From Sphaerolaimus hirsutus (Eukaryota; Nematoda; Chromadorea; Monhysterida; Sphaerolaimidae), in the NCBI GenBank assembly GCA_964036195.1, contig OZ038457.1, forward strand, positions 5,180,635-5,244,634: a stretch of 64,000 nucleotides of DNA. The letters are read 5' to 3'. The position numbers and the translations under genes were made by a program. Positions 15,205 through 55,230 of the stretch are shown one piece after another. Position 1 is the stretch's first letter. The number at the start of each line of letters is the position of its first letter. The notes under the pieces are model-generated. The model ran no database searches, was not told the origin of the DNA, and saw nothing but the letters and a program-made list of their open reading frames with translations.

Positions 15205-18200
15205 TCACAAACCAGTAACAATATCCGGTCGAATATTAGTTCTGGGCCTTTCCGCACCCTGCGTACTAATGGGTCTATGCAGCGTAGCGGAATCAGGCGG
15301 GTGTCTACCTTGCCCGACGCCCGACGTGCCCGACTGATGTTGGGTAAGTCGCAGTCGGGCAGTTACGAAGTCGGGTTCTGTGTAGCCGGCCCGACGGAAG
15401 GTGTCGTGCAGTTCCCGGTGCTGCCACATGGCGTAGAGAACCTGGGGGGTTTTGGTAGGTGTTTTTTGGTGAGTTGTGGTTTGGTGCCCGTCCCAGACCC
15501 TGAAAAATGTCAAACGTGTTTGCCATTTTACATGACTTTTGACACGTTGCATGACATTTGACATTTTACAGGGTCTGGGATTGTCCCCAGGGGGTAGTGA
15601 AAAGTTCAATGATTTTTGGCGAAAAACTTCAATACAGCTGATCGGAAATTTGCCAGTTTTTGAAATTTCTCACCCCGCTGAATATTTTACAGGGTCACTG
15701 GGATCAGTGGCTAACTCTGAAAGTTGTGAAGTGATACGAAACGTCATAAAAGACAGGCAAAGTTGCATTTAGTTAGTCAAGTGAAAGTAATTTGTTGACG
15801 TAAACTTCCCTACCACAACTTTTATCACCACTTGCCACTTTACAACTTTAGAAAATGGCCTGAACATTTATATCCACTCAAAAAACTACTAAAAACTAAA
15901 CTACGCAATAGGGTTCAAGCGGGACCACTTTATCACGTCGGGACCGGGACCAGAAATTTTTTTTATCATGACCGGGACCAGAAATTTTTCTTGTCGGAAC
16001 CGGGACCAGGGGATCGTACTGGGACCGGAACTGGCATATTTGTTTATCGCGACCGGGACCGGGTGTGGGATGTCAGGACCGGGACCGGTACTGCCTCTGT
16101 CCCGGAATTCTGCCGAACCATCTACTGGGACCGTGGTCCCGTTTGAATATTACTACCCAACCCCCCACTCCAAATCAACGCACATGGGCGGCATATCGCA
16201 TGACTCTAGTAGCATAGACAACTGCCTGCTGCTGCGGCGGCTGGACGTCGGGCGGCGCGGAGGCCACCAGCGGCCGGACGATGTGCATCAAACGCTCCGT
16301 GCCGCCCTTCTCGTGCAGAGACCTGAGGGAAAGTGGGGGGTTGTTAGATGATAAGTTACTGTCAATGGGCTCTACACACACTAGTTCTCGAAGTTTGAGA
16401 GCTCATAAATCAGTTTTAAACATGTTTGAGTTTACTGAAATGAGATATTTCTTAACTCCAGTTGATGGCGCCCACTGCGCATCTAGGCGCTCGCTCAGCG
16501 ATTGATCGATAATCGCTTGCTTATTGCCCATCTACGGGCTCCATAGATGTGCAATGGGTATAGATGGACAGTGGGCAGAATTAGATGCGCGGCGGGACTA
16601 GATGTGCAGTGGGATTATATGTGCACCGAAAAAGGCTAAAAAACCTCCCTTTGCGCACCTTGCAAACTCGACACTACTCCGCACAGTCTCATTGAGACAG
16701 GCGATTACGGCAGATAAAGTGGCGTCGCAGGCGGCGGAGTGCCGGTTGACTGGCTGCCCCACCGCTGGCAGCTTGCCAACTAAATCGGCCATCGCGTATT
16801 TACCTGATTTTGCGTGTGTGGGAGTGTTGATGATTTTTTTGGTTGAGTTGGCGATATTGGCGCTATGGCTATTGGCCAGTATGTAAACAAAAATCCGATT
16901 TTTTGGTATTTTCGAATTTTTATTCCGCCACTAGAAAGAATAACTTTTGAATCTTTAAACATTTTTAGAAAAATTCGAATATTTTATAATTGTTTATGAA
17001 TTTTCTGGTATTTTTTGGTTGATTATCTGAGCATGATCTATTTATATATACACGAAATAGTGATACCGTCTGAACCTCGCAGTGTAGCAGGGTTTCTGGT
17101 GCAAGAACTATATTTAAAAGAATCATTCCCATTTTTTTCTGGCATTATGCCATCAACTAGTGACACACCAATCATTCCCATTTTTTTCTGGCACTATGCC
17201 ATCAACTAGTGACACACCAATCATTCTGAATCATTCCCATTTTTTTCTGGCATTATGCCATCAACGAGTGACACACCAATCATTCTGAATCATTCCATTT
17301 TTTTCTGGCATTATGCCATCAACTAGTGACACACCAATCATTCTGAATCATCCACTATCACCCACCGATGAGATCTCTATTACTGGGGTCGATCGCCAAA
17401 TTCCGCAGCGCAGTGGCCACGGCGGCGCACACTCGCTCGTCGGGCAATCGCAAAAGTTCCACCAGCACCGGCAGACATTTCACTTTGCGCATGGCGCACC
17501 GAAAGTCGATCGAAGGCTGGAAAAACTGAGAAAGATTAATGGAAAAACAGTCGAATTAAGTCGAACCCCGCATACCGAACTTTTATACAATTTACAGTAC
17601 CGTGTCGTTTACCGACCTCCTGCCAAACCTGTGATTAGAGAGATTAGAGAAGAAATCTCTAGAGATTGTATTTTTTAAATACTAGAAAATATCAGAAAAA
17701 TCTTAGTTTTATTTATATGTTCTCCGGGTTTTTACAGATATTTAATTATATTTTATTTATAAGGAGAAAATGAAAAATACCTTATGAATATATTGATATT
17801 TCCTTTGCTTTTTCGCAGAGATTTAATCAATTTTCTTTTTGAGAGATTTTCGGGGAATAAATTAAATAATATTTTCTCAAAATCACCCCTTTTCAACGCT
17901 ACCCAAAATCACTCCCCCCCCAAAAAAACCACCTGCCAATAACACGCGGCCAAATTGTGTATAGTGCCAGCGGTAGCCTCCAACACGGTGCTGTTGCTCG
18001 ACTCGGACAACAGCTTGTAGTAGATCTTGGCCATGTAATCCTGCCACAAGTGCGCCAGTCCCGTGGGCGGCTTGCGCATGTAAAACGGCTGGTTGGCAGG
18101 GTCCGTTGAGGGCGCCGCTTGTTGTTGAGTCTTGTCGCGGTCTTTCGACTTTTTGCCGCCGAAAATCTTGGATTCTGTGGGTATGCGGGCGAGAGTTGAC

Positions 18201-27200: not shown

Positions 27201-30200
27201 TACTGCGCACACCTGCGATGTACGAATTTTCAACGCTGCTATACATACCTGGCAAGCTTACCTGGCATATTTTACATATTTGCACACATAACATGCTGAA
27301 AATGCATAAATATATTTACATGCGTTAGGTATCCGGTTGGGGTCTCCAAGATTTGTACCGGAGACCGGTCCCGCAACCTGTCATTAGTCATGTAAAATGT
27401 CAGGTAAATTTGTCAAATGTCATGTAAAATTGTAACCGACATTTTACAGGGTGTGGGACTGGCCCCTGTACTGTGTAGGGTATACTGTGGAGTTTTTAAG
27501 CTTAGAAATGTCTTAAGATGATTGCTCAAAATAGCCAAATAACAAGACAAAAGTAAACGGAAGCAATCAAATGGCAAAAAGTGAAAAAACCTTGAGCAGG
27601 GGTATCTTGAATTTTGACCCTCCGAGTGGTTGGATAAATAGCAAATCGCTCCTCCGGAGGGATAGATAGCTGAAAAATTTTCTTGGGGGGGGGGGTTGGG
27701 GGGGGGGGTTTGGGGGGGGGTTTGGGGGGGGGGTTGTGGTGGTTCGATATATAGGCTTTTTCGGGGCATAGAAGGAAGAAAAGGGAGAAAAATCGCTAAA
27801 AGTAGGTGTAAAACAGCTCAAAATGGGTATACAAGATCATATAGTACTTAAAATAGCTGAAAATAGGCAGTTAGACGCATGAACCAGTGATTTTGGAGGT
27901 GAAAATCTATATATAGGTATGAAAAATAGCGATTTTGAGCGAAAATTGGGGTATAGTTTCTGAAAAATCGCTCCAGATAGCTGAGCGATTTGGGGGGGGG
28001 TTTTACTGGGTAGTAGCCCAAAATTTTGCCTCCGGGATAGATAGATAGCTGAGCGGCCTCCAGGATAGATAGATAGCTGGGCGGTTTGGGGGGGGGGTAA
28101 CCCCCCCCCCCCATTCGAGACCCCTGACCGTGAGTTTGGACAATTAGCACGAAATCACTTAAAATAGTTGCACATGACTTGCAGTGGGGATTTATTGAAG
28201 GGGTGAGTCAGCTTAAACTTCAGCACGAAATCACTGAAAATCATTTCATAGTAGCGCGGTAAATTAGTTTAAAATAAGTTTAATGCTCACATTTTCAAAA
28301 TGGGCGTATTTCCAATTGTTTCACATGAAACGGGGGGGGCAACACAACACATGTTTCAAACACGCGGAAGCCATGCATGAAAATATGCAAGATAACACCG
28401 AGAAGGTTATACCAATCAATCAATCAATCAGACTGCACATTCATTTTCGATCCATCGCGCTAACTTACTATTCAAAGGATAACAATTATCCATCACAAAG
28501 GCGGTATGAATAAAATCGTTTGTTGTCACAATCTACCTTCGATAACCTCGAAAGTGTGCGTTTTGCAATTCTATGGACGGTTTTATTTAAAATTCCTCAC
28601 ATGTTGTCCGATTTTTTTTGAAACGGTACACGGACAAATTCCGGGCCAATTTTTCACAAACAATTTCGTTTGACCTTGTTAGAAGTTCACAGCGTGATAC
28701 TGACAACTAAATTCACAACAGAAACGTTTTTCATCGAAAAACCATGAAAATGTAAAAGTGGGCGCACAACAATTTCGTTGCGTAACATGAATTTCCAAAA
28801 TATTTAAATACACTTTTACGTTGCGTACACACATTGTTCATAGTTCACATAGAGAAACCCGGCTTACTAAAGCACAAAAGACATTCATCATTGATGCTAT
28901 CGCATGCAAAGTTTACGATAGATAGCCACCGGGTGCAAATAATAAGCCCAAGAGATACATACGTAAATTCAGTGTAGTGCACCGCCCTCAACATACATAC
29001 ACAAAAGTACACAGGGATGGGAGGGAATGTACTGCTATGCAGCGCTGTATGACTATGAGAGGTGCACCTATTGAGAAGTGATGTAAATGGCGCGAAAACG
29101 CCATGGCGTTTCTTCGTTTGGCGCTAGCGGGTGTGATGCCTGGCGCCATGGAAAAATGACGTAGCGCCAGTGGCGCCATAAAGAATTTCGCAATGGCGCT
29201 TTCACTGCACTACTTGGGATGCGTTTGAGGATAAGCAGATGAGCAGTTTAAACAAAGTCTTCCATGAACCCTAAATGTAACCTTTCTGGAATGTGGCAGT
29301 GACGTGTACCAATTCAATACACTGTCAAGTGACAATCATCCGGGTAGGTGTATTAAAAACTGTCAAGTGTCATGTCAATCGAGAATTCATTTCGAAGTGA
29401 TTTGCGCAACTTTTCATTATTATTGACACTATTCGCTCAAGTTGACAGGGCGCGTAATCGGACACCAGTCAAATAAAAATTGCCAAATTTAAAACAGCAA
29501 GGCAGTATTTACTTTCGCTTTTGCTTTGAAAAAACAGTTTCTACGCTGCATGGAAGTTTCTCTTGCGGCCGGTGGTGATAGATAAAAAACAAACAAGAAA
29601 AAACGAAACAAATTATAAAAAAAAATTCCTTATGCCTAGAATAAAATTTTGCATAGAAACCCAACAACTACAAATCAAAAACTGACCAGTGACATCCACT
29701 GGAACCACATCGGACGGAACGGAAGGCTCTGAATAACCCATCGCATTTTTCGCTATCACTCTGAATTGATAACTGTGCCCGGGCGACAGGTCACCGACTA
29801 TAATTCAATTAAAATTTGTAATTATAAATATCGCCTGTGACGAAACGCAACGTGCCCAAAGTGGAGTACACGAAAACACCAACTTGTCATTTTGCACGTG
29901 TGCATGAGGATATCGTTGACTTTGTACCAAAGTCTGTCGTCGGCGGTGATGTCGACGAATTCCACGTCGTAGCCGTGCACGGGCAGCGGGGAGTGCGCCG
30001 GCAGCCAGCATAATGTCACCTGCGCGCGATTTGTGGTTGCCAAGATTAGCGGTATTATTGCGCATATTCACACAAAAATGGTACCAGGAGCGTAGTCAGG
30101 GGGCGGGGGGAGAAATGCCAGAAGTGGAAATTTCCGGTACCATTTTGCGGTGTAAAAATTTTTGCGTGTAATTTTAGGTAAACCAGAAAACAGCGGTACC

Positions 30201-33200
30201 GGTAGCGGTAATTAACGGTACGGTAACGATCCCCAGCCACAGGTCAACCAAACTCCCTCACCTGATCTTCGGTCCTATCGAGTATTTCCGGTGGGTTCGG
30301 CCGCGCGGGCACCCCCTTCACTTGCCCATGTAATTTCGGTCGCAACTGCACCAACTCCGACACATCAGAGGGTTCAGAAACGCCCAAAGTGGTGCGGCAG
30401 GCGACACGAAATTCGTAAGTAGAATTGGGCCTCAGATTGTGAACTGTTAGCTGAGTGCCGGCCACCAGGGGGCACTCACGGACCCAATAAAGTGCACTGG
30501 AAAGTGTCAAGTGTCACGCAAAGTGTCAAAAGCCATGTAAAATGCCCTGGAAAATGACAAACCGGGTTGCCATTTCACCGGGCATTTTGCATGACTTTTG
30601 ACACTTCACACAACATCTGACACCTTCCAGACCACTTCACAGGATCCGCAAGTGCCCACCACGCGTTCAGTAGCGTTTCGCCACTGCGGGTCGCCGATCT
30701 CGCGGCTCTGCACCACGTAGCCCAACAAGTTGGCGCCGAGGCTGGCCGCGGGCGACCATTCAGGCGCCGCCCAGCACAATGTCGCCCAGTCGCTGTCCGC
30801 GTCCACGATGCGGGGGGCTGATGGACGCAGGCCGACCCGCCAGGAGCCTGAAATGTGTGAGATGGTTTTCTAAATAATCGCTTCTATGAGATTATTCCGA
30901 AACGGGGATTTTTTATATCGGGGTCATTCGCGGGCTGAAAATTTGAATATTTTTCAATAATTTTCAAATTTTATTTAAAATATATAGATTGCAATTTTCT
31001 GGACCAGCAATTGATAAGCAATTGTTAAAAACGACAACTCATTTTTTTTAAAACACAAACTTGGAAACTAATTTTTAACTTACAAATTCCCACTCTTCAC
31101 AATTGGAAATCACATGTCGATGTCATGAAGATGTATAGATTAACAACAATCCCACCCACAGAAAAACCACACCACAAACCTCCATCGAAGGGTTCCTTCA
31201 CATGCCCGACCTCTCCATAGGGGCTGGTATCAAACCCGGGACCGTTTGGCGCCAAAACCCGACCCGGACCCGCCGGCGCAATTATAACCGGGTTTGACGG
31301 GCGAGAAGGCTCGGAGTAGCCGAAATCGGCGTTGCGGGCGGACACCCGGAACTCGTAGGTGCACATGGGCAACAAGTTGGTCACTGGAAATGTGTGAAAT
31401 GTTGACCTTGTTTTTTACTGGCGAAACTAGTTTGACATAGATATTTAGAGACAATAATCGTAGAAGCGTAGACGATTTCATTACACAGACGAGTTGTGTT
31501 CGAATAGCCCTGTTCATTAGCCGTCATTCAGAACGAAATGAAACGGGGAGCGTATACCTCATTTTAGATATTAGATACGCACAAAAAACTGACAGGCAAA
31601 AATTGATGTTATCATTTGAAAATGATCACATAATTACCAAATTCCAGATCAGAATAGTGAAAAAATTGGTCAAGACGCACTCAGCATAATCATGTACACC
31701 TCCATTGGTCATCAATATTTATATCCGAGCCCACATTTCAAACACAAAATCCCAACCCAAAACCCCAACCCCACACCCCAAAACCCACCTTCAAAATGGC
31801 ACTCCTTAATAGGATAATCATTCGCAGGGGTCCACACATTCTCCCCACTGGTCTTAGCGTGATGGTGCGCGTCGGCGGGCGTGACGGGTCTGAACTCGAT
31901 CAGGTAGCCCGATATGGCGCCGGGGGCCATACTGGGCGGCTCCCAGGTGAGGGTGCAGGCGCTCGTAGACACGCTGATGATTCGAGGGCAGGATGGAGGG
32001 TAGGGGACGCCTGGGGGTTGTTTGGGGGTGGGGGGAGTTTGTGGTCAGTTTATTGGTTTTACTTGCAAAGGGAGCTATTGTAATGAGCACAGATTGAATT
32101 TGGGTGGAGGTGTCAAATTACCCGATTGTCCGAGTAGGTAAACATTTTTATTTATTTAATAATTTCGGAAATAAAACTCCGACACTTTGTAGCCGAAGAA
32201 CTGAACCGGAACTGAAATCGATAACCGAAACAGATGCCCGAAACGAATTTTTTTGAAACCGAAACCCGGAACCACAAATTTTGAAAATTCCCAACTCTAG
32301 CACCGATTCACAATAGCATAACAATTAGGTATTTAGATCTCAATTCACACAAAAAAAACCCACCAGTATGCGCGGGCGCCAGTCCGCTATTAGTGCTAGC
32401 CGAGGCACTATTATAATCACTAGTGCCCATGCCCAGCGCGTGCGTCTGCTGCGGCCCCTTGGGGCTCGTCGGGCCGCCCTTCAACACTGCGGGGGCGCAG
32501 GGCGCGCCGGGCGGCCCGAAGCCGCACTCGTTCTTGGCGCACACGCGGAATTGGACCGGGGTCCAGGGGTCCAGGTTGGAGACTGGGAGTTTGGAGGGTG
32601 GGTGTCGATTTTGGTGTGTCAATTAACGAGGGATTCTATTAATCTATCGAGATATGAAAAATACAAGAATATCGATATCGATCAAAGGTTTTATCGTCCG
32701 AACCCTGCAATATTCGCGTGACTAAATTACCCGAACAACGAGGCGTAATTTTCCAATAATAATAATGGTTCATGCTGCTTAAATGAAACGTGTTTAAAAC
32801 AGATTCAACCAGCCGTCTTTCAAATTCAGATTCAAACAGCCGTCAACTAATGTATAAAGCCACAATGTCGATAGCACATAACACACAACACATCATCAGA
32901 TCGCACCAAAAACACAAAAATACAATGCACAGAAAAAGGCACCATTCTCGCCAGTCTCCTCAATTCCAGAGACCAAGGTGTTCTCCTTGACGGAGCTGCA
33001 CTTGGCGCTCGCCGCCCCCTTCGAGCTGTGCGGCCGGCGGCGTCTAGCGGACGGCGACCGGGCGTATCGACTCACCAGGGGCGGGATTCAATTGACCCGA
33101 CAGGGTTTTGTGTTTAGAGTGCCATGATTGATTGTATTTGAAAAACCTAGTACCCAGGGGACACTCCCGAGCCTGTCAAGTGTAAAGTAAAGTGTAAAAT

Positions 33201-36200
33201 GTCATGTAAAACGACAATCAAAACAAAAAATGACATTTTGACACTTTGCACGACAATTGATAAATTTGTATGACATTTGTGATTACATACAATTGACAAG
33301 TTTCGATGACACTTGACATTTTTAAAACATTGTAAGACATTTGACACTCTACTTTACACTTTACAGGGCTCGGAACTGGTAAAAAGTCAACTCGGCCTGG
33401 TTCCAAACAGAACCACGTATTTAGAATTTCAGACGCAATCAAATCGGGTACCCGAAAAAAACCCGTCGGGCCAATCAAATCCCGCACCGGAACGGGTTCG
33501 GTGCACGCGGAGCTGTTCAAGAGGAACGAGTTAGTAGAATCGGTGAACGTGCTGCTGTAAGTCTGCTGTTCTCTGCGCCAAAATGTCGTCTCCACTGAGC
33601 TCCGTCGCATTTCGCTGGAGTAAGAAGATTGGGCGTGTGATTTTTGGCTCTGTGCCAGTGACGCACCGCGGTTGAGCATTTTCCGCCGCCGCTGCCGTAA
33701 GTGATGAAAAAGTGTTATTTTTAGGTAGGTAGAGAAGCTGGGCAAAAATCGGGAATAAATAGATGATGAAAGAATAAAAAGATGATGCGAGAATAAATAG
33801 TTGTTTGATAATAAAAAGTGATGCGTTAATAAGTCCGGCACGTTTTTTTTGCCGGGCAGCTCGAAACTTCAGAAACTTAAGCTGCCCGATTAAGCTTCAG
33901 ATATAATCGAAAAGCTTGACGGGCCAATTAAATTTCGCACCAGTTCAGAACAGAAATGGCTCTACTATTTATTTACATCGAAATATATGAGCATTTTCCC
34001 GCACAAATTGCCGAGCTACTGATAAATGGCGCGCGGCAAATCAAACACGTTCAAACTGCGCTTTCAAATGGCATTCCCAATCATGGAGCGACATATGGGA
34101 AGGAACAGGATGGGAGGAACAAATTGTTATGATTTCTCACACGCAGCGGCGCATTTAGCCGCGCGACACATGAAACGGCCGCTGGTGCCAGATCCAATTA
34201 GGATGTAAGGCGCCCGACATGCTAGAAAATGCAGCGTTGAGTGGCGTGCCGGACGCCTTACACGCGCCTTAAGTTCTAATTGGGTCTGGCCCCAGGGCTA
34301 CGCAGCTATGCAGCCAGCTAATGCATAATGCATGCTTCCCACTCTAAACGGGCGGGCGGTAATTGGAACTGTAGTGCACCAGCCACGGCCGCACGTTCAT
34401 ATGCATACAGTAAACGTATATTCTTGAATAGAACCCCCCGCTCGAATAGGGCCCCAGCGAAGGTAAGTGACGAGCGAAAACTTGCACCTTGAATAACAGT
34501 TCGAATGATACAGGTAAATCTTGCACAAAGTATTAATGTAACAGAATCAATATAATAAAATGTGCTTCAAATGGGAAAAAGTGTGAAGATGCAGGGGTTT
34601 AGTAGGGGGGTTGGGGTGGGTTACCCCCCCCCCAAATCCGCCAGCTATCTATCTATCACGGAGGCAAAATTTTGGGCTACTATCCCCTAAACCCCCCCCC
34701 CAAATCCGCCAGCTATCTATCTATGTGGAGTATCTATGCGTCTAACTGCCTATTTTCAGCCATTTTTAGTACTATATGTCCTTAAATACCTATTTTTCAC
34801 TTACTTTTAGCGATTTTTCTCCTTTTCCTCCCTTCTATGCCTATATTTTGAACCCCCGCGAACCCCCCCCCCCAACCCCCCCCAGAAAATTTTCAGCTAT
34901 CTATCCCTCCGGAGGAGCGATTTGCTATCGATATGAACCCCCGCGGGGGTCCAAATCTACAAAACCCCTGTGAAGATGTAACCAGTCCCAGTTTGATGAT
35001 TTATATAAAAGTAATTAATATTTATGTATGTAAAATTTACTGCAATTAAGGTGCTCCACACGGTGATTGACATTCGAATGTCAACTGGTTGATGTCAACT
35101 CATATTTTAGTTCACGTGTCACAGAGCGATCTTCAATTGCACATGTCGTCGTTGCAGCACCGGCAATTGAAGATCGCTCTGTGACACATGAACTAAAATA
35201 TGAGTTGAAATCAACCAGTTGACATTCGAATGTCAACTACCGTGTGGAGCGCCTAAGTAATTGCAGAAATGATGATAAATGAAACTCCCTACGCAAGTAA
35301 CTTAACTCAACGGCCAGCTTGGTGTGACACAATAAAAAACTCCCGGGGACTTATTCAAGGGAATGTAATATATATTTAAATATTTACATTGGATAAGTAA
35401 AAATGAATGGATGCTGCATAAACAGTTATGAACAGGTGCCACCCCCAGACCCTGTAAAATGCCCTGACAAATGTCAAATGTAAAGTTTCAAAAATCATGT
35501 AAAATATTGTGAAAACTATCTAACGTACACAAAGATTTTACAGGGTTTCGGAGTGATCCGGGGACGGTTGGTAATCATAATCAGATTTTGAGTGTTGATA
35601 TCCATTTGAAATTTGACTCTGGCAGATTTATGATTGAAAAAGTTATCAAATCAACAAAATAAATAAGTGTGGGCATGAATACATGTAATGTAAATACTTC
35701 ATTTCGCATATATTTATCACGTTCATAATGAACCTCACCTAGGCTCAGCAAACTGAAACTGACCGTGAGATTGATTTTCACTCATTAACAAAATCTAAGA
35801 TTTCTTCAGCACCCGAAGCAACAACAGCTGGCGACATGAGATAAAACGTCAGCAGACCGCAAGGTATGCGCCCAAAGTTACTTATGTCTTAGTCGAAAAC
35901 GTGCTAGGAGGGTACTTATGTATAGGGTTGGCCGATGTTTTTTTTAAACGTTTTTTTTTTTTTTTAAACGTTTTTTTTTAAAAAAAAAACATGACGTCCG
36001 AAATGTTTTTTTTTAAAAAAAAACATCGGCCGAAATTTTTAGTACTAAGCACTAGGTATTTTGCAAAATTTTTGCGCGCAAGCGCGCAATTTCACACACA
36101 AATTGACATTGGTGGTTGTTTTCATTGGTTTTGTTGCATTTTTAGTATCAAAACATCCATTTCTATGCGCTACCATGGGTGAATAAGCCGACATATGTCG

Positions 36201-39200: not shown

Positions 39201-42200
39201 GCATACATGACGTATTTATTATGTACATGACGTACATCATTGGGGGTATTTCGAGGGGGGTTATTATTTCCCCAGCCCATTTTGAGGGGGTTTATTCGAG
39301 GGGGGGGGGGTTAATTCAAGGGGGGGGGGGATAGTTCGAGGTAATACGGTAAGCAGACAAAAATAAATGCGCAAAATTGGTTAAGAAAACATTCAGCATT
39401 GGACGAAAGAGAGCCAATGGAGTTAACTAGTAAAATTAGTACAACGAAAATTTACAAACTCAACTACCGAGTATAAATATTTACATATGCGCCGTATGTT
39501 CGCATTTATTTTTACAAAAATAAGATAGTTATAAGCATTTTCCAGCCTATTTACAAAAGCAGCAGAAAAAACTTATCAAGCCTATAAAGTTCAGTTAGCT
39601 TGCAGAAAAGCTTCACACACCAATGTAGTGTATTTTTATGTGTATAGCATACAAACACTTGGCAAACAAACGGGCACACGTGCATTTACAAGGAGAGAAA
39701 TGTAGCTACGGCGCACTGTTAACAGCGGAAAATAAATGTTTACATAAATAATAAAAGGAATTTTGAGTTCAAATGAAACATTAACTATTTACATAGCTAA
39801 AGAGATTCGGTACGGGGTTTAATTGGACGGGCGCGTTACATCCATGATAATTTTTAGGCACACTCTTATTTTTTGTACAAAAATCTGGGCGCCGGTAAAA
39901 ATCATCACGATAACACGTAAATTGAATTTCGCAATACATTGTAACGAAAAAGCAGGGTTAGCTACCACATCTCTTTGAGAAATCGCGTAAAATTCTTACT
40001 ACAAAACAAACAGAAAGTTGGCAAAATTCATCGGCGCGATAATAAGTCCCTAAACGTAAGCGGATTTGACAACGTAAAACGCTTTCCTGTCTCAACGTAA
40101 ATACGCAATTATGCCATGTGTTATGTATAGCTGGCACTTATCCCCGCCGCACATTGCGTTTGATACAAGTTACAATAAATTTTACATAAGCGTCAATATT
40201 TGCTCAATGGATAAGTAAATAAATGAGACACATTGTGCACATGTTGCCAACTTTTCACCGCCGTTTAAACGTTTATAGATTACGCCATTTTCACACCACA
40301 CGAGTAGGGTTCAAACGGGACAAGTTTTTCGGAATTGGTACAGGGACTGACATTTTGGAAAATGCCGATTTTCAGTCGGGATTAGCATTGATCAGTTGCT
40401 TTTCAAATTTGACAGGATCGGAATATGCATTTTTATTGTCAATACAAGAATCCGGGTCTGAAAAGCCCCGAACGAAATCATGATAGGGATGGGTATACCA
40501 TTTCAACCCTACACTCGACGGACAATGTAACTCAGGCACACTCAAATTCTATTCCGACGATATGACCTTCCGATATCTTTGATATTTAAAAATCGATCGA
40601 AACTCGCACTCAAAATAAATACAAAACATGAAGAAAAAAACACAGAAAAACTCCAGAAAAAACTCACTAGTACACTGTTCATCCGCAATCAAATCGTCAT
40701 GCGCCCTACTCCAAGGTATCCTATCCCAACTGGCATCCGCACTGCCCAATCTATATTGCACCTGGTAACCCAAAATGGGGCCGCAGGTGCCTTCAGATTG
40801 GGGCCTGCCCCAGACCAATGTCACTTGAGCACCGGAACTCTGGTGCGGGCTGGCCGCCTCTGATAGCATTAATTCGGTGATTTGTGGTGCGGTTGGTGTC
40901 GATGGTAGGGCTGTGGGTGATGTTTTTGATGTGATGTTTTTGAGGAAATTTTTTTTTGGACAAGTTTTGGATACTTGGAATGAAAACGGGTTTCGCGAAA
41001 CGGCGCAATAGATTATTTTGTTTGTTCCTTTCTTTTCTTTTCAGGCTAGTTATTGGAACAAAAGGAATATTGATATACTCCGGTTACTTTACACCCTGCA
41101 CGCGTGGTTCCCGCTGGAAGTGTGCCAACGATGGTTAACGCGTCCGAGTTTCATAAAAAGATGACAAATTTGATTGTTGTTATAATGTTATTCATTAACA
41201 TATTCACAACGATGAATTTTTTTCATATTTTTACGGAAATCGCATGATTTAATAATCATTGGCACGCTTCCAACACGAGATGTAAATCAGTGCGAGGGCA
41301 GAGTATCACGTACGCCGAGTATATCTGGTAATAAGTACCGTCCCGATAACAATCCTACACTCTGCCAAATGCCTTGAACGCGAACAATTTTTAGAGGATA
41401 AATTGAAAACATTATTTCATGCGTTGGTGAAAATTCGAGATAAATTGTCAAAAAAGAATGTTGAAAATATCTAAAAGACTTTTTACTCGTTTTCCACCAA
41501 AACAAATTGCAAATAGAAATGGGAAACACCATCACATCATCAAATCTCTAGCCCACCCAAAACCCACCAAAATCGTGGGGATAGGCATTCTGATCCGAAA
41601 GTCTCACAGCACTAAAATCATTCAGCACAGTCTGCCCATCAGCCTCCTCATAAGCAGAAGTTGCAACTTGTTGAGTATATAACAAAGTGTTTCCAGGGTC
41701 CCCCGCACCACCCTGGGGGCAGTCACAGACACTGTAAAATGCCCTGTAAAATGTCAAATGTCATGCAAAGTCTCAAAAGTCATGTAAAGTGCCCTGTAAA
41801 ATGGCGGACCATATTCCAGGGCATTTTACATGACTTTGACACTTTACATGGCATTTGACATTTACAGGACAGTTTACAGGGTCTGGGATTGGCACCTGGT
41901 GAGCTTGTTGCTGACTGGTCGGAAGCACCAAACCGGAATTTGGGTCGAAACAATAGCGCTCTACAGCTTCTACGGGACTTTTTACCGGCACTTGTTTTAC
42001 ACTGTGCGTTGTGGTCATTTTCGTGACTCGGGTTACCTGGGATGGGGGGGGGGGGTAATTTGGGTAGTGGTGCATGGGTCAAGAAGCTACCCCTGCTACG
42101 GGCGCTGGCTATTTTCAATGTTTATAATATTCATTGTTTACGAACCCTCGAATAAAAATTCAGCTTTTATAACAAACGCCTTTCCCGGAACCTGCCAATC

Positions 42201-44759
42201 AGTATACGAAAACCAACCACAAAGCCTATCAAAACTTTTTATCTACCTATCGAAGTGTTCAAAATGTAACTAGGTAATCAATATCAATGCAAAAAAACCC
42301 ACAAAAATTCAACCCCAAAACCCAAAACCCCCCGCCCACCTTCTTAGTCTCAGTAGCCCGGCGTTCAATATTCGGGTCATGAGGATCCTGCAGCCACTGC
42401 TCAGTACCGGGCGCGGGCTCGGGCAGCGCGTGCTGGCCGTCGGGCGGCGGCACGTCGTAGCAACTCTCGTACGTGTACGAGTAGGCGGTGCTGTGCGCGC
42501 TCAAGGGGTCGTTCATGGTGTGCGGGTGGTCGCCGACCTGGGGTGATACTTCCGGACACTGTGAAGTGCCTGGTAGATGGAAAATGTCAAGCAAAGTGTC
42601 AAAAGTCACGTAAAATGGCCTGGAAAATGGCAAACTAACGTTTGCCATTTTATGTGACTTTTGACACTTTGCGTGACATTTTCCATCTTCCAGGGCGTTT
42701 TACAGGGTCTGGGAGCGGCACCTGGGCGACTTGTGCCGCGGCGGCGGGCTCGAGCGACTGGTGCGGCGGCGCGTCGGGCGCGTAGCTGCCGCGCGCGCCC
42801 GACGCGGTCACGATGGACGAGGGCTCGTCGGGTTCCGCGTAGCCGCCCGCCTCCGGCGTTTGCCTGAGATGAGACTGTCAATGAAGGATGATACGGTATT
42901 TGTTGAGCCGGACACTTTTTCAGGCGGTTCGACTCGTTGAATGTGAATTTCTATGCCGCTAGTGTAGGTAAAGCAGCAATTTATAATAGCCGTAGTGTAG
43001 TTAAATTCAAACTCGGTTTAAATTCAGTTTATAGTGTCAAACTATTTTAATATCGGGCAGCCCGACAAAATTTGTCGGGCTAACAATGTCACACCGTGTT
43101 ACTCGAGAATCAGTGCATACCAGGGTCCACCGCTACGCGTGGCGCACTCGCAAATGGGCATATTTTGCGGCCAATAGACAATGCCGACAGCATTAAAATA
43201 TCCATAGCGATAATTTTGGTTCATTTCTCTTGTTTATTAAATTTACATTTTTGCCGAAAAACGTTTGACAAATTTGCTCAACACGCGGGGAAAAATACAG
43301 ATAACTCGAATGTCATATTTTTAGCTAGCGGCAAGACCTGCTCAAGCCAAATACTCCAAGAAAGAAGATTTGTGAATAGGACACCGCCAGGACAAAATTC
43401 AATTAACCAGCTTCTCTTTTCAAGCTCCAACGAAATAGTCAATCAAATAACTGGAAGTAAAGTGACCAGTCAAATATAGTTTTCATACTTTGCCATTGCG
43501 GTGTAATCTCCAATGGCTTAGAAGCCGGCAAATTCGCAACCGCTACGGTATGGAATACTTGGAAACACTAGTAAATAGGGCAGTCCGGTACATTTTTATG
43601 TGCAAAGGAGACACCAGATACCGATACAGTACTAGCGGTGGAAAAGCGCCAAAAAAGGGCGCCACCAATGGCGCCATTCGGAAACAGAGCGCCAAGAAAG
43701 CGGGCTCCTACTTAACTACTTACTTTAGCAAATTTCAGTTTAAAAAATCGATTTTTAATGAACGTAAATAAAATAAAATATTTTACAAGTTTTATCGTTT
43801 TTGCAAAACGTAAATAAAAGTAAATATTTTACAAGTTTTATCGTTTTTGCAAAACGTAAATAAAAGTAAACAACCACAATCCCACAATCAACTCAAACAA
43901 CCAAAAAACCCAACAACCCCCCCAAAAACCACCCACCAATCAGCCTGCTCCGGTCTAAGAACACGCTGCGAAGTGGACTCGCTGGCGGTGGTGATCACGG
44001 GCTGGGGGCGGTGGCCGAAGTCGAACTGCAGCTGGGCCACGCACGACTCGGGTACAGTTCTGGGGGGGGGGGGTTAATGGGTGTGGATTTGAATGGGGGG
44101 CTAGTTAAAAGGGGGGCTAAAAGTGACTGGCTCACTGGGCACCAATCTCGGCTCAATAGAAAATATTTATTGTTTTAAAAGTTTATAATCGAGCTCTCAT
44201 GTCGGGCAAATGCAAAAATTGACAAGAGACTCACCTCTTGCTCCCTACCTACAGAGCGCTTCTGCGACTCGAATAAGCTCCCAGACAATATTGAAGCTAG
44301 GTAAAAAGAATACATAAATAAATCACACAAACGCGATTTAATATCCACAGAGCATTACATAAAGGGCTTACGACTCGACTTACACTTAAGTTCGGCACTA
44401 ATTGCAAATTAGCTAACTTTTTGCAAATAATGTGCCGAACTTGAGTCGGAAGCAGTTTATATGACCTCCAAAGGCCCCAATGTAGGATACCCCTTTCAAC
44501 ACAGCATTCACAATTGGGCGGGGGGGGGGGGCGCATCGCACTGCCAAATCTCGCACCTAACACTAGTATCAACTCGCTCGCACGAGTACACCTCCCTCAA
44601 CTTGGTGGTGTGCTCGGCGCTGGTCACCGTCATGTCGCCATCGTGATAAGTCTCGATTTTCGGCTGCTGAGAGACCCCATCAAATTGGTGGCCCCCCTCT
44701 AGAAGCCTCTGCTGATATTCAGCCGTGCTTAATTCGGCATCTTCCGGTATAGTTTCCAT
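15205..44759 (-). CDS. jac-1: p120/delta-catenin with N-terminal fibronectin III domains (JAC-1-like), 27 coding exons
   Basis: Exons in order: 44759-44557, 44059-43937, 42863-42722, 42537-42340, 42036-41896, 41712-41568, 40910-40668, 32582-32364, 32010-31789, 31383-31180, 30847-30660, 30474-30262, 30019-29884, 29797-29687, 23063-22956, 22766-22623, 21272-21140, 21048-20917, 20849-20744, 19587-19409, 19001-18837, 18629-18520, 18174-17933, 17516-17366, 16803-16659, 16322-16184, 15441-15205. All phases agree: 4479 nt, 1492 aa. The protein has a polar N-terminus (1-320), four FN3 domains (about 320-830), a Pro-rich linker (830-913) and p120-type armadillo repeats (914-1415). p120 proteins bind the juxtamembrane tail of classical cadherins and tune adhesion. 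FN3 domains are not typical of vertebrate p120 but are recalled for C. elegans JAC-1. The start codon (gccATGG) is the first in frame. The donor at 18520 (A|gtcggt) is the least certain junction. Two introns exceed 6 kb; two are precise foldback elements and a third nearly so. Confidence 0.93.
15484..15590. mobile_element. Short CCCAGACCCTG foldback copy in the last catenin intron
   Basis: GGTGCCCGTCCCAGACCCTG ... CAGGGTCTGGGATTGTCCCCAG, 107 bp. On the plus strand it has GT...AG ends, opposite to catenin transcription, so here it is a passenger in an intron rather than the intron itself. Confidence 0.75.
17133..17348. repeat. Four-copy tandem repeat (about 55 bp)
   Basis: Units ATTCCCATTTTTTTCTGGCA plus TTATGCCATCAACTAGTGACACACCAATC, differing by small indels, in a catenin intron 17 nt upstream (plus side) of an exon. 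Confidence 0.88.
19090..19222. mobile_element. CCGTATTTCC foldback, short copy in a catenin intron
   Basis: ACCGTATTTCCTAGAAATAC ... GTATTTCGCGGAAATACGTT. Confidence 0.7.
19660..19855. mobile_element. Diverged CCCTGTAAA-family foldback in a catenin intron
   Basis: TGACATTTTGCATGATG, ACATTTGATAAATTTG and ACACTTTACAGGGTGC blocks end in TACTGGCACCAG. The left end is eroded. Confidence 0.5.
21501..22358. mobile_element. CGATAT-repeat hAT-like element, copy 1
   Basis: TAGGGTTCAAACGATATATC ... GATATCGTTTGAACCCTA, flanked by CTGGTCTG at 21493-21500 and 22359-22366. Subterminal arrays of TATCGAATATCGATATCGA surround a 450-bp AT-rich core. In a catenin intron. Confidence 0.88.
22623..23063 (-). CDS. 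jac-1: Catenin gene, linker exons 15-16
   Basis: Exons 23063-22956 and 22766-22623 join FN3-4 to the armadillo region in matching phase 1. They encode a Gln/Pro/Gly-rich, probably disordered linker ending PPFAPVEG just before [10 protein letters not shown]. The acceptor of the second exon follows a C8 run. The gttggt donor lies next to an alternative CCA|gttgag that would break the frame. Confidence 0.82.
23842..24363. mobile_element. CTATCTATC hAT-like element, copy 1
   Basis: Ends CAAGGGTTCAG and AACCCCTG, flanked by ATAGCTGG (23834-23841 and 24364-24371). The interior has CAGCTATCTATCTAT blocks, C/G runs and TTTTAGCGATTTTTCTC. In the 6.6 kb catenin intron. Confidence 0.82.
24952..26165. 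mobile_element. CTATCTATC hAT-like element, copy 2, interrupted by a GGCCGATG element
   Basis: CAGGGGTTTAGTGGATTTGG ... CCATACTGAACCCCTG with internal AGATAGATAGCTGG blocks. The element at 25062-25744 is inserted in its G-run. Flanks match only imperfectly (GATTCCAT against GATTTGAT). Confidence 0.7.
25062..25744. mobile_element. GGCCGATG hAT-like element, copy 1, nested
   Basis: TTGGGTTGGCCGATG ... CCAACCCTA, flanked by GTTGGGGG on both sides. Conserved interior: TTTTAGTACTAAGCACTAGG, TTGCGCGCAAGCGCGCAATT, ATTGACATTGGTGGTTGTTT. Short open frames in it are shared by all copies but look non-coding. Confidence 0.82.
27366..27468. mobile_element. CCCTGTAAA-family foldback copy in the 6.6 kb catenin intron
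   Basis: GGTCCCGCAACCTG ... GACATTTTACAGGGTGTGGG and ACTGGCCCCTG; about 103 bp with complementary arms. Confidence 0.6.
27597..28126. mobile_element. CTATCTATC hAT-like element, copy 3
   Basis: CAGGGGTATC ... GAGACCCCTG; flanks ACCTTGAG and ACCGTGAG match at 7 of 8 positions. Confidence 0.75.
29687..40910 (-). CDS. jac-1: Catenin gene, exons 7-14 encoding four fibronectin III domains
   Basis: FN3-1 uses exons 40910-40668 and 32582-32364; FN3-2 uses 32010-31789 and 31383-31180; FN3-3 uses 30847-30660 and 30474-30262; FN3-4 uses the end of 30474-30262, then 30019-29884 and 29797-29687. Each shows the expected TLxW strand, a GY.V/I strand, a central W or V, a hydrophobic-x-N/D-L turn and the YxFRV...N..G.SEPS signature ([35 protein letters not shown] in FN3-1). 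Domains 1, 2 and 4 are split by a phase-1 intron immediately before the (V/I)xxL turn. Domain 3 lacks that intron and is split instead by the 185-nt foldback intron about twelve residues earlier in phase 0. FN3-1 is divided by an 8.1 kb intron. Confidence 0.88.
30475..30659 (-). mobile_element. Introner-like foldback element forming the intron that splits FN3 domain 3 (185 nt)
   Basis: The exon ends GAACGCGTG; the intron runs from GTGGGCACTTGCGGATCCTG to GGGTCCGTGAG, followed by TGCCCCCTGGTGGCC. The arms (TGTCAAAAGTCATG and its complement) fold as in the other copies. TGGTG flanks the element on both sides. The acceptor is slightly inside the terminal repeat, so the last bases of the element would be exon. 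An acceptor at the downstream CAG (30454) would shorten the FN3 loop too much. The junction deserves transcript support. Confidence 0.65.
32943..33070 (-). CDS. Candidate second alternative exon in the catenin gene
   Basis: GC-rich open frame ([13 protein letters not shown] ... [16 protein letters not shown]) ending G|gtgcct in phase 1, which would join in frame to the FN3-1 second half or to the FN3-2 exon at 32010. Its acceptor is unresolved: every AG gives phase 2, while the exon at 33488-33679 ends in phase 0 at its best donor. It may be an exon disturbed by the adjacent insertion. The plus strand is also open here. Confidence 0.28.
33075..33487. mobile_element. GTCGGGC-family foldback carrying a nested CCCTGTAAA-family element
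   Basis: Outer ends (minus strand) GGTGCGGGATTTGATTGGCC and CGGGTCAATTGAATCCCGCC are inverted repeats containing the TTGGCCCGACGGG motif. Inside, 33154-33380 is a separate foldback (CTCCCGAGCCTGTCAAG ... CTTTACAGGGCTCGG). The outer element starts at the donor GT of the candidate exon 33488-33679. A relative lies at about 2972-3376 in a TMEM47-like intron. Confidence 0.65.
33488..33679 (-). CDS. Candidate alternative first exon inside the catenin gene
   Basis: Within the 8.1 kb intron, an ATG opens 64 codons of Ser/Thr-rich, Arg-containing protein ([20 protein letters not shown]), ending CCG|gtgcgg. A good acceptor (atcacttacggcag) lies 12 nt before the ATG, but reading in from the FN3-1 exon phase meets a stop. 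So it is better explained as an alternative start than as an internal exon. Its donor coincides with the end of a GTCGGGC-family foldback (33075-33487). Content resembles p120 N-terminal regions in composition only. Confidence 0.42.
34182..34296. mobile_element. Short foldback with CTGGTGCCAGATCCAATTAG ends
   Basis: GGTGCCAGATCCAATTAGGA and TTCTAATTGGGTCTGGCCCC are inverted; ATGTAAGGCGCCCGACA and its complement follow inside. The GT...GCCCCAG ends resemble the introner-like family though the interior is unrelated. Confidence 0.65.
34592..34970. mobile_element. CTATCTATC hAT-like element, copy 4
   Basis: CAGGGGTTTAGTAGG ... CTACAAAACCCCTG, flanked by TGAAGATG (34584-34591 and 34971-34978). 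Confidence 0.85.
35050..35255. repeat. Near-perfect 0.2 kb palindrome in the 8.1 kb catenin intron
   Basis: AAGGTGCTCCACACGG ... CCGTGTGGAGCGCCT; arms of about 90 bp include AGAGCGATCTTCAATTGC and its complement. A related AGAGTGATCTTCCAATGCAC stretch occurs at 22393-22415. Confidence 0.88.
35436..35562. mobile_element. CCCAGACCCTG foldback copy
   Basis: CAG|GTGCCACCCCCAGACCCTG at the left and CAGGGTTTCGGAGTGATCC at the right, with TGTCAAATG-type arms, in the 8.1 kb catenin intron. Confidence 0.65.
35923..36609. mobile_element. GGCCGATG hAT-like element, copy 2
   Basis: TAGGGTTGGCCGATG ... TTTCCAACCCTA, flanked by CTTATGTA (35915-35922 and 36610-36617). About 95% similar by eye to copy 1. 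Confidence 0.87.
36675..37504. mobile_element. CGATAT-repeat hAT-like element, copy 2
   Basis: TAGGGTTCGGATGATATG ... ATATCGTCCGAACCCTA, flanked by CAAGCAAC at 36667-36674 and 37505-37512. The core resembles the other copies in inverted orientation. Confidence 0.88.
38502..38937. mobile_element. CAGGGCCGTATCCAGG hAT-like element inserted in a CCGTATT element
   Basis: CAGGGCCGTATCCAGG ... TCCTGGATACGTCCCTG, flanked by CGTATTAC (38494-38501 and 38938-38945), which is part of the end of the surrounding CCGTATTACCTCGAAATACC element (38490-39353). A GGCGCC block lies inside at 38745-38830. Confidence 0.87.
41075..41330. repeat. Dispersed repeat, copy 2 (ATACTCCGGTTACTTTACACC)
   Basis: Partner of 4445-4735, here in the catenin intron between exons 6 and 7. 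Confidence 0.8.
41568..44759 (-). CDS. jac-1: Catenin gene, N-terminal exons 1-6
   Basis: Six exons encode residues 1-317, starting [19 protein letters not shown]. The region is polar, rich in Pro, Ser, Tyr, Gln and acidic residues, with several Tyr-containing stretches ([16 protein letters not shown]) that could be kinase sites, as in the p120 N-terminus. No domain is recognisable. Codons end mostly in C or G, unlike the AT-rich introns. Introns 3 and 5 of this block are the 184- and 183-nt foldback introns. Intron 2 contains a 58-bp tandem duplication and a fragment of the GTCGGGC foldback family. Confidence 0.88.
41713..41895 (-). mobile_element. Introner-like foldback element forming an entire catenin intron (183 nt)
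   Basis: On the minus strand the exon ends CACCAG and the intron begins GTGCCAATCCCAGACCCTG. It ends CAGTGTCTGTGACTGCCCCCAG before exon GGTGGTGCG. The two ends are imperfect inverted repeats, and the interior (TGTCAAATG...CATTTGACA blocks) folds back on itself. No unrelated intron sequence remains. The intron is phase 0 in the unconserved N-terminal region. Confidence 0.85.
42538..42721 (-). mobile_element. Introner-like foldback element forming an entire catenin intron (184 nt)
   Basis: Exon GTCGCCCAG is followed by GTGCCGCTCCCAGACCCTG, a hairpin centred near 42637 (AACGTTAGTTTGCCATTTT against its complement), and CACTTCACAGTGTCCGGAAGTATCACCCCAG before exon GTCGGCGAC. The last 20 bases have diverged from the family but still supply the acceptor. 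CCCAGGT occurs at both borders. Phase 0. Confidence 0.85.
43740..43870. repeat. 58-bp tandem duplication in a catenin intron
   Basis: The unit ATATTTTACAAGTTTTATCG plus TTTTTGCAAAACGTAAATAAAA occurs twice in tandem just downstream (plus side) of a GGCGCC remnant. Confidence 0.85.
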
Positions 44760-45697: not shown

Positions 45698-46403
45698 CTG
45701 GGAGCAGTCCCAGGCCCTGTAAAATGCCCTGTCAAATGTAAAATGTCATGCAAAGTCAAGGGTCTCCTAGGGGGGGGGGGGGGGGGCTGGGGGGGGCTGC
45801 CCCCCCCAAATCCGCCAGCTATCTATCTATCCCGGAGGCCGCTCAGCTATCTATCTATCCCGAGGCGAAATTTTTGGCTACTACCCCCAAACACCCCCCC
45901 CCCCCAAATCGCTCAGCTATCTATCTATCTGGAGTGGTTTTTGAGAAATTTTGCCCCAATTTTTGCTCAAATTCTCCAATTTTCGCACCTTTTTATAGTT
46001 TTTCACCTTCAAAATCGTGCTCTCCGGCTATATACATGGTTATATACCTATTTTTAGCCACTTTATAGCTACTTTTGGCTACTTTTAACTGATTATTAGC
46101 GATTTTTTCCCCTTTCTGCCTTCTTAACCGTGAAAAAGCCTATATATTGTGCCCCCGCCAGCCCCCCCCCCAGAAAAATTTTCCGGCTATCTATCCCTCC
46201 GGAGGAGCGATTTGCTATCTATCCAGCCCCCGCGAGGGCCAAAATCCTGGAGACCCCTGTGCAAAGTGTCAGAAGTCATGGAAAATTCCCGGTAAAATGG
46301 CAAACGTACGTTTGCCATTTTACCGGGTATTTTCCATGACTTTTGACACTTTGCAGTACATTTGAAATTTTACAGGGCATTTTACAAGGTCTGGGACTGG
46401 CAC
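45698..46403 (-). mobile_element. CCCAGACC foldback copy upstream of the catenin start, interrupted by a CTATCTATC element
   Basis: Minus strand: CAG|GTGCCAGTCCCAGACCTTG ... CAGGGCCTGGGACTGCTCCCAG|TT. Removing the nested element (45757-46259 plus its 8-bp duplication) leaves about 195 bp, the size of the catenin introner-like introns. With GT...AG ends in catenin orientation it could be a 5'-UTR intron, but no leader exon is proven. Confidence 0.72.
45757..46259. mobile_element. CTATCTATC hAT-like element, copy 5, inside an introner-like copy
   Basis: CAAGGGTCTCCTAGG ... CTGGAGACCCCTG, flanked by TGCAAAGT (45749-45756 and 46260-46267). Confidence 0.87.
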
Positions 46404-47274
46404 CTGAAGCAAACTCAAAGTGTTTGTAATTCAGTGTATCGGAATTCCTTTGTGTCACGTCGCAAGTGCACCCACATTAGGGATGTACAAATAGATAGTT
46501 ACACACTGGAAAAATCCTAGCTGGAAACAAATGACCCACATAAAATGGCCAGAGAAGATGTTATGTAGGGATCTATTTTGTGCAGAGACCACGTACCTAC
46601 CAGATAAATAATAATACAAATACTACAAGTTTCGAAAATTATATTCTTCACAACAACAGCATACCTCGAATGAGTCAGGTATGCGCCACGGCGATTTTGA
46701 AGGTCAAAATGGTGGAAAAAAGCGATTTTGAGTGAAAATTGAAGCACAAAAATTTGCTCGTCATACGGGTAGATACATAGTGACCGGGATTAACAAATCC
46801 GGACATTTTACCAGAATCGATATAAATATCTACCTGAATACAGTTTGTACGCCGTGCGTATTTTCCACTGAATACTCAATATCTAGCATGACATTCCATG
46901 AACACACCGAGACAAAACGGCTAGCGAGCTACACGCAGAGTTCATGTGCATTCAGCGCGGAGACACATACGCGCATTCCTGGGGGATTTCGTCGCTGCCG
47001 CCCAGCGTCGCCGACGGAACATAACATAACCTACAAGTGAAACACGGCAGCGAAGGGAGACAATAGCGTCATTTAAGTGACAAATTTAAGAGATAAAGTT
47101 TCGGATTTGATGTCAACGGCGGGGTTCCGAAAATTTTGCAACTTTATTGAGCGGGCGGGCGGGCGGCTGGTGTATCAGGAAGATGCAAATATTGGGAATC
47201 TTCGCCCGGTTTAGCAGAAAACTTCCAAACGCCCCGAAAATCACTTCACCAACAACCCGACTCATTCACAAACT

Positions 47275-47467: not shown

Positions 47468-47649
47468 GTATAAATATACTTAGTTGACTGGAATAGACTC
47501 GACTGCGGAAAAAGCTAGTTGGTTGTGGAATTGGAATGGGCATAAAAGGGGTTTAAGTTATGCGGCGAAGTGACGAGATGAAATATGTTAGTGTGGTAGT
47601 CGATTGGGCTATTTTTTTTCTACAGCAGAAAAAGTGCCGAGCATCACAG

Positions 47650-48057
47650 GTGCTCCCAAACCCTGTAAAAGACCCTGTAAAGTGTCAAAGATTCTCTAAA
47701 GTGTAAAAGACCCTGTAAAATGTCATGTGTTATGTAAAAGACCCTGTGAAGTGTCAAATGCCATGTAAAAGACACTGTAGAGTGTCATGTGTATCCAAAA
47801 AAATTTTTATCTTATCCAAATCTGATGTTTTTGTATACAAATCTTACCTTTTGAATACAACAACATAAGATTTGGATACGATAAAATAAGAGTTGGATAC
47901 ATGCCACTTTACAGGGTCTTTTACATGACATTTGACATTTGACAGGGCATTTAACATGACACATGACATTTTACAGGGACTTTTACATGACTCATGACAT
48001 TTTACAGGGTCTTTTACACTTTACAGGGTCTTTTACAGGGTCCGGGAGTGCCCCCAG
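47650..48057 (+). mobile_element. Large CCCTGTAAA-family foldback (408 bp)
   Basis: CACAG|GTGCTCCCAAACCCTG at the left, CAGGGTCCGGGAGTGCCCCCAG|GTGT at the right. The interior has several TGTAAAAGACCCTG units and their complements. Plus-strand GT...AG ends fit the introner pattern, but no exon is proven on either side. Confidence 0.72.
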
Positions 48058-55097: not shown

Positions 55098-55230
55098 CAG
55101 CCCCAGACTATGTAAAATGTCATGTAAAATGTCAAATGCAAATATTGCTGCCTATATTGCATTTGAGATTCAACATGAAATAAATGGCACATAGCACATG
55201 GCATTTTACAGGGTCTGGGACTGGCCCCAG
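55098..55230. mobile_element. CCCAGAC foldback copy with CTGGCCCCAG end
   Basis: Left CAGCCCCAGACTATGTAAAATG, right TTTTACAGGGTCTGGGACTGGCCCCAG; intergenic. Confidence 0.65.

Follow-up and report, generated by a model that had tools for sequence, protein, structure and literature searches.

The locus examined here raises the question of whether a mobile element can supply an animal gene with whole introns, and which bases of the element or of its target would then serve as splice sites. Within the window (the whole stretch of 64,000 nt that was analysed), two minus-strand introns of 183 and 184 nt, hereafter introns A and B, had been described in a preliminary description as one and the same foldback element from the first base of the donor to the last base of the acceptor. 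Each of them starts with GTGCC, ends with CAG and lies in phase 0, with the borders CACCAG/GTGCCAATCCCA...GACTGCCCCCAG/GGTGGT in intron A and GCCCAG/GTGCCGCTCCCA...GTATCACCCCAG/GTCGGC in intron B (slashes mark the exon-intron limits). Global alignment of the elements, which are 180 and 181 nt long, gave a score of 85.5, compared with a mean of -7.2 (sd 5.6, maximum 8.0) in 200 shuffles, which excludes a chance likeness, and foldback arms are present in both, so that the proposal of a single shared foldback element was borne out. Joining the predicted exons yields frames that stay open for 90 nt on either side (QQQAHQ/GGAGDP for intron A and AAQVAQ/VGDHPH for intron B), and stops are encountered in the reading frame if the element is left in, in agreement with the earlier observation that the exon frames meet at the intron ends. 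The further claim, that the terminal repeats provide both splice sites, held for the donor GT and failed for the acceptor, the AG of which belongs to the 3' copy of a duplicated CAG target; the run of C followed by AG noted before consists of the CCCC of the element and the CAG of the target. Each intron is composed of a single foldback miniature element (MITE) and one of the two copies of a duplicated 3-bp target (Table 1). No known RNA family was detected at the gathering threshold between positions 41500 and 43000.

Table 1. Positions of the predicted introns, their target copies and coding flanks, other family matches in the window, and the conserved genes interrupted by CTG/CTG copies elsewhere in the genome
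Feature	Position	Strand	Remarks
Intron A, GT-AG, 183 nt	41713..41895	-	Element 41716-41895 plus 3' target copy (CAG, gene sense) 41713-41715
Intron A, 5' target copy (CAG)	41896..41898	-	Last 3 exon bases ahead of the donor
Intron B, GT-AG, 184 nt	42538..42721	-	Element 42541-42721 plus 3' target copy (CAG, gene sense) 42538-42540
Intron B, 5' target copy (CAG)	42722..42724	-	Last 3 exon bases ahead of the donor
Intron A, downstream coding flank	41623..41712	-	90 nt read, phase 0
Intron A, upstream coding flank	41899..41985	-	Read together with 41896-41898
Intron B, downstream coding flank	42448..42537	-	90 nt read, phase 0
Intron B, upstream coding flank	42725..42811	-	Read together with 42722-42724
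Family copy, nearly full length	30466..30653	.	Sequence match, candidate only
Family copy, partial	46260..46406	.	Sequence match, candidate only
Full or partial element match	3805-4010
Full or partial element match	9630-10638
Full or partial element match	15483-15590
Full or partial element match	27391-27468
Full or partial element match	33174-33366
Full or partial element match	35433-35505
Full or partial element match	45698-45757
Full or partial element match	47647-48057
Full or partial element match	55098-55230
CNOT9, interrupted locus	C1:10595698-10596238
RARS, interrupted locus	C1:8232967-8233457
EFTUD2, interrupted locus	C1:20014771-20015242

The host gene had been named p120-catenin. 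On the same strand, further along, two Arm-repeat exons have matches to Arm proteins; designed Arm proteins score highest, followed among natural chains by catenin delta-1 (3l6x, E = 1.4e-18), with plakophilin 1 close behind. The N-terminal exons that hold introns A and B have no Pfam match, and their place in a p120-catenin gene is putative.

The consensus ends of the element are GTGCCAGTCCCAGACCCTGTAAAATG and TTTTACAGGGTCTGGGACTGCCCC, and its arms pair across most of its length; in two-ended copies one terminus is mostly GGGGC and the other GTGCC. RNA folds placed a terminal helix near the element ends in 88 of 88 copies (median offset 0 at either end), and 82% of the bases were paired on average. 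Identical 3-mers flank 52 of 90 two-ended copies from 79 sequences (CTG 29, CAG 21 and CGG 2; 46 of 73 after deduplication, since overlapping loci led some copies to be counted twice), and identical 4-mers flank none of the 90, which argues for a duplication of 3 bp, mostly CWG. Fourteen of these copies were dropped as duplicates or as lacking the GTGCC end, and intron B of the window was missed by the screen. The genome-wide search with the element that had been suggested earlier was performed with GTGCCNNTCCCAGACCCTGTAAA at up to two mismatches and returned 17,113 matches (8585 + 8528) in the 348-Mb genome and none for the reversed pattern, although matches do not equal elements, 26 of the 119 in the loci analysed hitting the other element end. 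Among the 100 exact end matches listed, 72 fall in the 70 loci sampled. The window alone contains more than ten full or partial family matches besides introns A and B.

Exact two-ended copies of similar length were classified throughout the genome by their 5'/3' target, resulting in 370 CAG/CAG, 228 CTG/CTG, 108 CTG/CAG and 39 CAG/CTG copies, with reversed controls of zero in each of the four classes. A copy with CTG as target on the strand of the gene cannot be a GT-AG intron, and its predicted end is TG. Three such CTG/CTG copies interrupt conserved genes, the joined exons of which align without gaps to solved proteins, namely CNOT9 (120 residues, junction 60/61, E = 3e-65), EFTUD2 (94 residues, E = 7e-40) and RARS (97 residues, E = 1e-32). 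In six more genes with CTG/CTG copies, encoding a nucleobase permease, a sugar transporter, an E1 dehydrogenase, a 7TM receptor, OSCP1 and CHGN, Pfam matches above the cut-off span the junction, and a calpain match at one further locus (L074) is marginal. Homology support was obtained for 6 of 20 CTG/CTG loci sampled, these being 20 of the 228 places, taken in list order on contig C1 with those already in hand skipped. OSCP1 harbours two introners, one CAG/CAG and one CTG/CTG (L029:227-403 and 1050-1238), and so does CHGN, one CTG/CAG and one CTG/CTG (L037:1501-1766 and 2545-2708), the same situation as that of introns A and B in the window. The exact protein joins and the frame would, to within the register of the 3-bp repeat, call for TG as the productive 3' end, and splicing at GT...CTG/exon is the simplest reading. 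The continuity of the encoded proteins strongly indicates that CTG copies would be removed as GT-TG introns.

With similar sequence reaching both splice boundaries in the window introns and in the conserved-gene joins, and with a dispersed repeat that bears the marks of transposition (terminal repeats, a 3-bp duplication and end matches by the thousand), the earlier proposal that this animal has an introner family of DNA-transposon origin, in which a MITE makes whole introns, is well supported.

The position of the copies relative to coding sequence was analysed by codon models and by homology, a copy being termed sense when GTGCC faces the 5' side of the gene. In the three main target classes the flanks have an average GC content of 0.55-0.62 within 60 nt and of 0.40-0.44 at 300-600 nt. 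The codon model relied on was trained on 13 homology-supported joins and applied to ±90 nt with a threshold of 3; it called 20 of 62 C1-locus copies coding, all of them sense (some training copies included), compared with 26 of 1377 random positions. For the 77 copies outside training it gave 18 sense calls, one antisense and 58 neither, distributed over CAG/CAG (8 sense, 0 antisense, 15 neither), CTG/CTG (8, 1 and 21), CTG/CAG (0, 0 and 7) and other targets (2, 0 and 15). Since 58 of the 77 remained uncalled, many copies are not shown to be introns. Outside training, the same model gave 15 sense versus 2 antisense calls at ±60 nt and threshold 3 (random 38/1377), and 14 versus 1 at ±90 nt and threshold 5 (random 16/1377). 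A self-trained model without hold-out (±90 nt) produced high scores only on sense copies, and a weak leave-one-out model (±60 nt) returned 16 sense, 1 antisense and 57 unclear among 74 copies (random 26/1018). A Pfam scan of 70 copies on both strands, covering 62 sense and 63 antisense peptides, yielded matches to five families, each of them on the sense side: OSCP1, cation ATPase and carnitine acyltransferase at CAG/CAG copies and CHGN at a CTG/CAG copy, these four above the cut-off, and IP_trans below it. Two further peptide sets were chosen by eye, one of 10 peptides (9 sense and 1 antisense) and another of 10 (all sense). The orientation bias is strong, and it bears on the possibility that CTG copies are GG-AG introns read in antisense, an idea suggested by the GG donors described for the copepod Eurytemora affinis in the accessible text of PMC5714493. 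This candidate is not supported, as every homology-supported CTG copy is sense; the single antisense model call remains.

The two mixed classes differ in number (108 CTG/CAG versus 39 CAG/CTG, p = 1e-8), a departure from neutral mutation, which would make them equal. The asymmetry fits selection changing TG ends into AG, and it is the counts that carry this proposal, because CTG/CAG copies are not more diverged from the end consensus than the others and none of the seven outside training was called coding by the codon model. The mean mismatches per 50 nt were 2.25 for CTG/CAG (n = 8), compared with 3.14 for CAG/CAG (n = 28) and 2.58 for CTG/CTG (n = 36), so that a greater age of the CTG/CAG copies is unsupported. 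At the sampled loci, 34 of 36 CTG/CTG copies and 10 of 28 CAG/CAG copies have G as the first exon base past the target (Fisher p = 8e-7), and the excess is also seen against mirrored CAG sites (p = 0.003); it may reflect either selection for a TG end followed by G or a preference in the choice of target.

We consider the most probable reading, at roughly 0.85, to be that these introners are short non-autonomous MITEs which insert at CWG in exons and are spliced as GT-AG or GT-TG introns. The element would insert at CWG, duplicating these 3 bp, with one of its ends starting GTGCC. Where GTGCC points toward the 5' side of the gene, the donor would be formed by the leading two bases of the element and the intron end by the target copy downstream, and removal of the element together with one target copy would restore the mRNA exactly. 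A CAG target in gene sense would give a GT-AG intron, as in introns A and B, and a CTG target a GT-TG intron, which is apparently still used; a later T-to-A change at the 3' end would convert the latter into a CTG/CAG copy spliced as GT-AG. Being nearly palindromic, the element could form a hairpin that brings both splice sites together in the RNA, and this pairing may enable splicing despite a weak donor and the TG end. A fuller version, which we favour with moderate confidence, holds that the CWG-targeting MITE yields working introns on either target strand, that the TG end is constitutive in essential genes, including that of the core spliceosome protein EFTUD2, that some copies mature to AG, and that the 3' end is chosen largely by the hairpin and not by AG. 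GTGCC is a weak donor by the textbook consensus, and this counts against the main reading. So do the human TG acceptors, which are judged unable to act constitutively in the accessible text of PMC2374985.

Among the alternatives, the one that survives best, though it is unlikely, is that only the CAG copies are spliced as introners and that the CTG copies are spliced at another AG and not at CTG. In 8 of 10 copies examined an AG in a T-rich context lies 19 nt before the intron end, and in 5 of 10 another is found at -31; human TG sites, as far as the same source was accessible, likewise rely on a nearby AG (PMC2374985). However, GT occurs in the 5' repeat at 0, at 18 and, in some copies, at 6, and by arithmetic on these offsets, pairing any of these 5'-end GTs with the AG at -19 or at -31 would lengthen the mRNA by 1 mod 3 nt, so that use of the internal AG would shift the frame. 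Moreover, AG is missing from the last 40 nt of the EFTUD2 copy (L096), and the exonic AGs of the ten copies examined lie at unrelated distances, where their use would delete conserved residues.

It is less probable still that the conserved genes contain unspliced insertions, present in broken alleles, in pseudogenes or through assembly error. Splicing of the copies in these genes is predicted from protein continuity, and second copies in fragments, such as those of EFTUD2, do occur in the assembly. When the joined peptides of CNOT9, EFTUD2 and RARS were searched against the genome, 11 matches were returned, in which CNOT9 and RARS are represented only by the two halves flanking the element, with no other copy in the assembly, and EFTUD2 by its two halves, two further fragments and three weak relatives that share 38-45% identity. 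The match extends past the junction in two of the relatives, and, judged by the PDB matches of the EFTUD2 peptide, these are probably elongation-factor-2-like genes rather than EFTUD2 copies; a near-identical uninterrupted copy of any of the three genes was not found in this assembly. The extra EFTUD2 fragments (L101, C13:19278850-19279500, and L102, C1:20026300-20026900) adjoin runs of N, both carry the element, and look like gapped, unmerged haplotype pieces. Against the unspliced-insertion reading, frames and proteins are otherwise intact, all supported cases share one orientation, and random breakage would generate neither this bias nor the CTG/CAG excess.

Elements that landed in pre-existing introns surely exist, and one antisense Pfam match barely over the cut-off, to GDT1 at locus L062, starts 25 residues past the junction and fits an element lying within an ordinary intron. 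As a general account, however, this is very improbable, since in the supported genes nothing but the element and one target copy makes up the intron, and the exon side bears the matching 3-bp duplicate, in two different target classes. Excision from the DNA of some cells, in the manner of internal eliminated sequences, would also remove the element with one target copy irrespective of AG or TG, but it predicts neither the orientation bias nor the excess of CTG/CAG over CAG/CTG, the elements are kept in the assembly, and we regard it as the least credible alternative to splicing of CWG-targeting MITEs.

The genome contains at least 163 matches to DDE_Tnp_4, the Harbinger transposase domain. A Harbinger transposase was considered as the autonomous partner; in the one copy read (L100:2189-2821, C1:20514088-20514720), introner ends were absent within 5 kb. 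Many of the DDE_Tnp_4 copies listed have near-equal scores and four in-frame TGA in common at the same reading; in copy L100 the in-frame TGA look like a frame broken by short introns. On the mitochondrial contig C762 (L079), the COX1 frame is open when read with the invertebrate mitochondrial code; long tandem repeats occur near the end of the stretch read. Among the open-access titles listed on introners in connection with horizontal transfer, copepods and arthropods, none dealt with this family, and no paper in the open-access collection searched combined introners with Lepidoptera.

If spliced as proposed, the family would constitute a countable animal example of a transposon minting introns, and the presence of one family on two target strands would amount to a natural experiment on the strictness of the spliceosome's need for AG. 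Among the CTG/CAG copies there may be introns in the course of gaining a standard acceptor, and annotation restricted to GT-AG would overlook the GT-TG introns.

The published systems are compared here as described in the accessible portions of each report, by description and not by sequence in the case of the introner survey. In that survey of 3,325 genomes, introners with target duplications were found in only two animal groups, and one introner type carries the 5' splice site and borrows the 3' site from the duplicated target (PMC9860276). The present family resembles them in that non-autonomous DNA elements form whole introns with a target-derived 3' site, but GC and GA donors are described there and TG acceptors are predicted here. 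The hairpin introners of the dinoflagellate Amoebophrya likewise have ends joined by inverted repeats, direct repeats of 3-5 nt at the exon borders and non-canonical ends (PMC7789003); their ends and repeats are highly varied, whereas in the single family here the donor is fixed and the acceptor is mainly of two types. The NuwaI group of PHIS (Harbinger-like) transposons, recorded only from animals, including one crustacean, makes a 3-bp CWG duplication, and its repeats usually start with GGG (PMC4482050); such elements are mobilised by a NuwaI transposase accompanied by a second, Myb/SANT gene. A CWG duplication is found here as well, in 50 of 52 identical 3-mers (CTG or CAG; the other two are CGG), with GGGGCA at one end of the element and GTGCC at the other. 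A kinship to CWG-targeting Harbinger-like transposons is proposed. Work on tunicates and copepods indicates that animal spliceosomes can relax (PMC13326754, PMC5714493, PMC7072748). Human TG 3' splice sites, reported from 36 genes, share with the present case the use of TG by U2-type introns, but are alternative sites tied to a nearby AG (PMC2374985), whereas the TG end here is apparently the sole productive one. A precedent is the green alga Micromonas, in which the introner classes IE-B and IE-D have GT-TG splice sites, comprise 25 and 6 members, are mostly in phase 2 and, in the accessible text, are reported with no peculiar secondary structure (PMC3879977). Introners, and GT-TG introners among them, were thus already known from this alga; the present family, with its animal host, its foldback element, its 228 exact CTG/CTG copies, examined by sample, and its capacity to make GT-AG introns as well, looks like a new variant.
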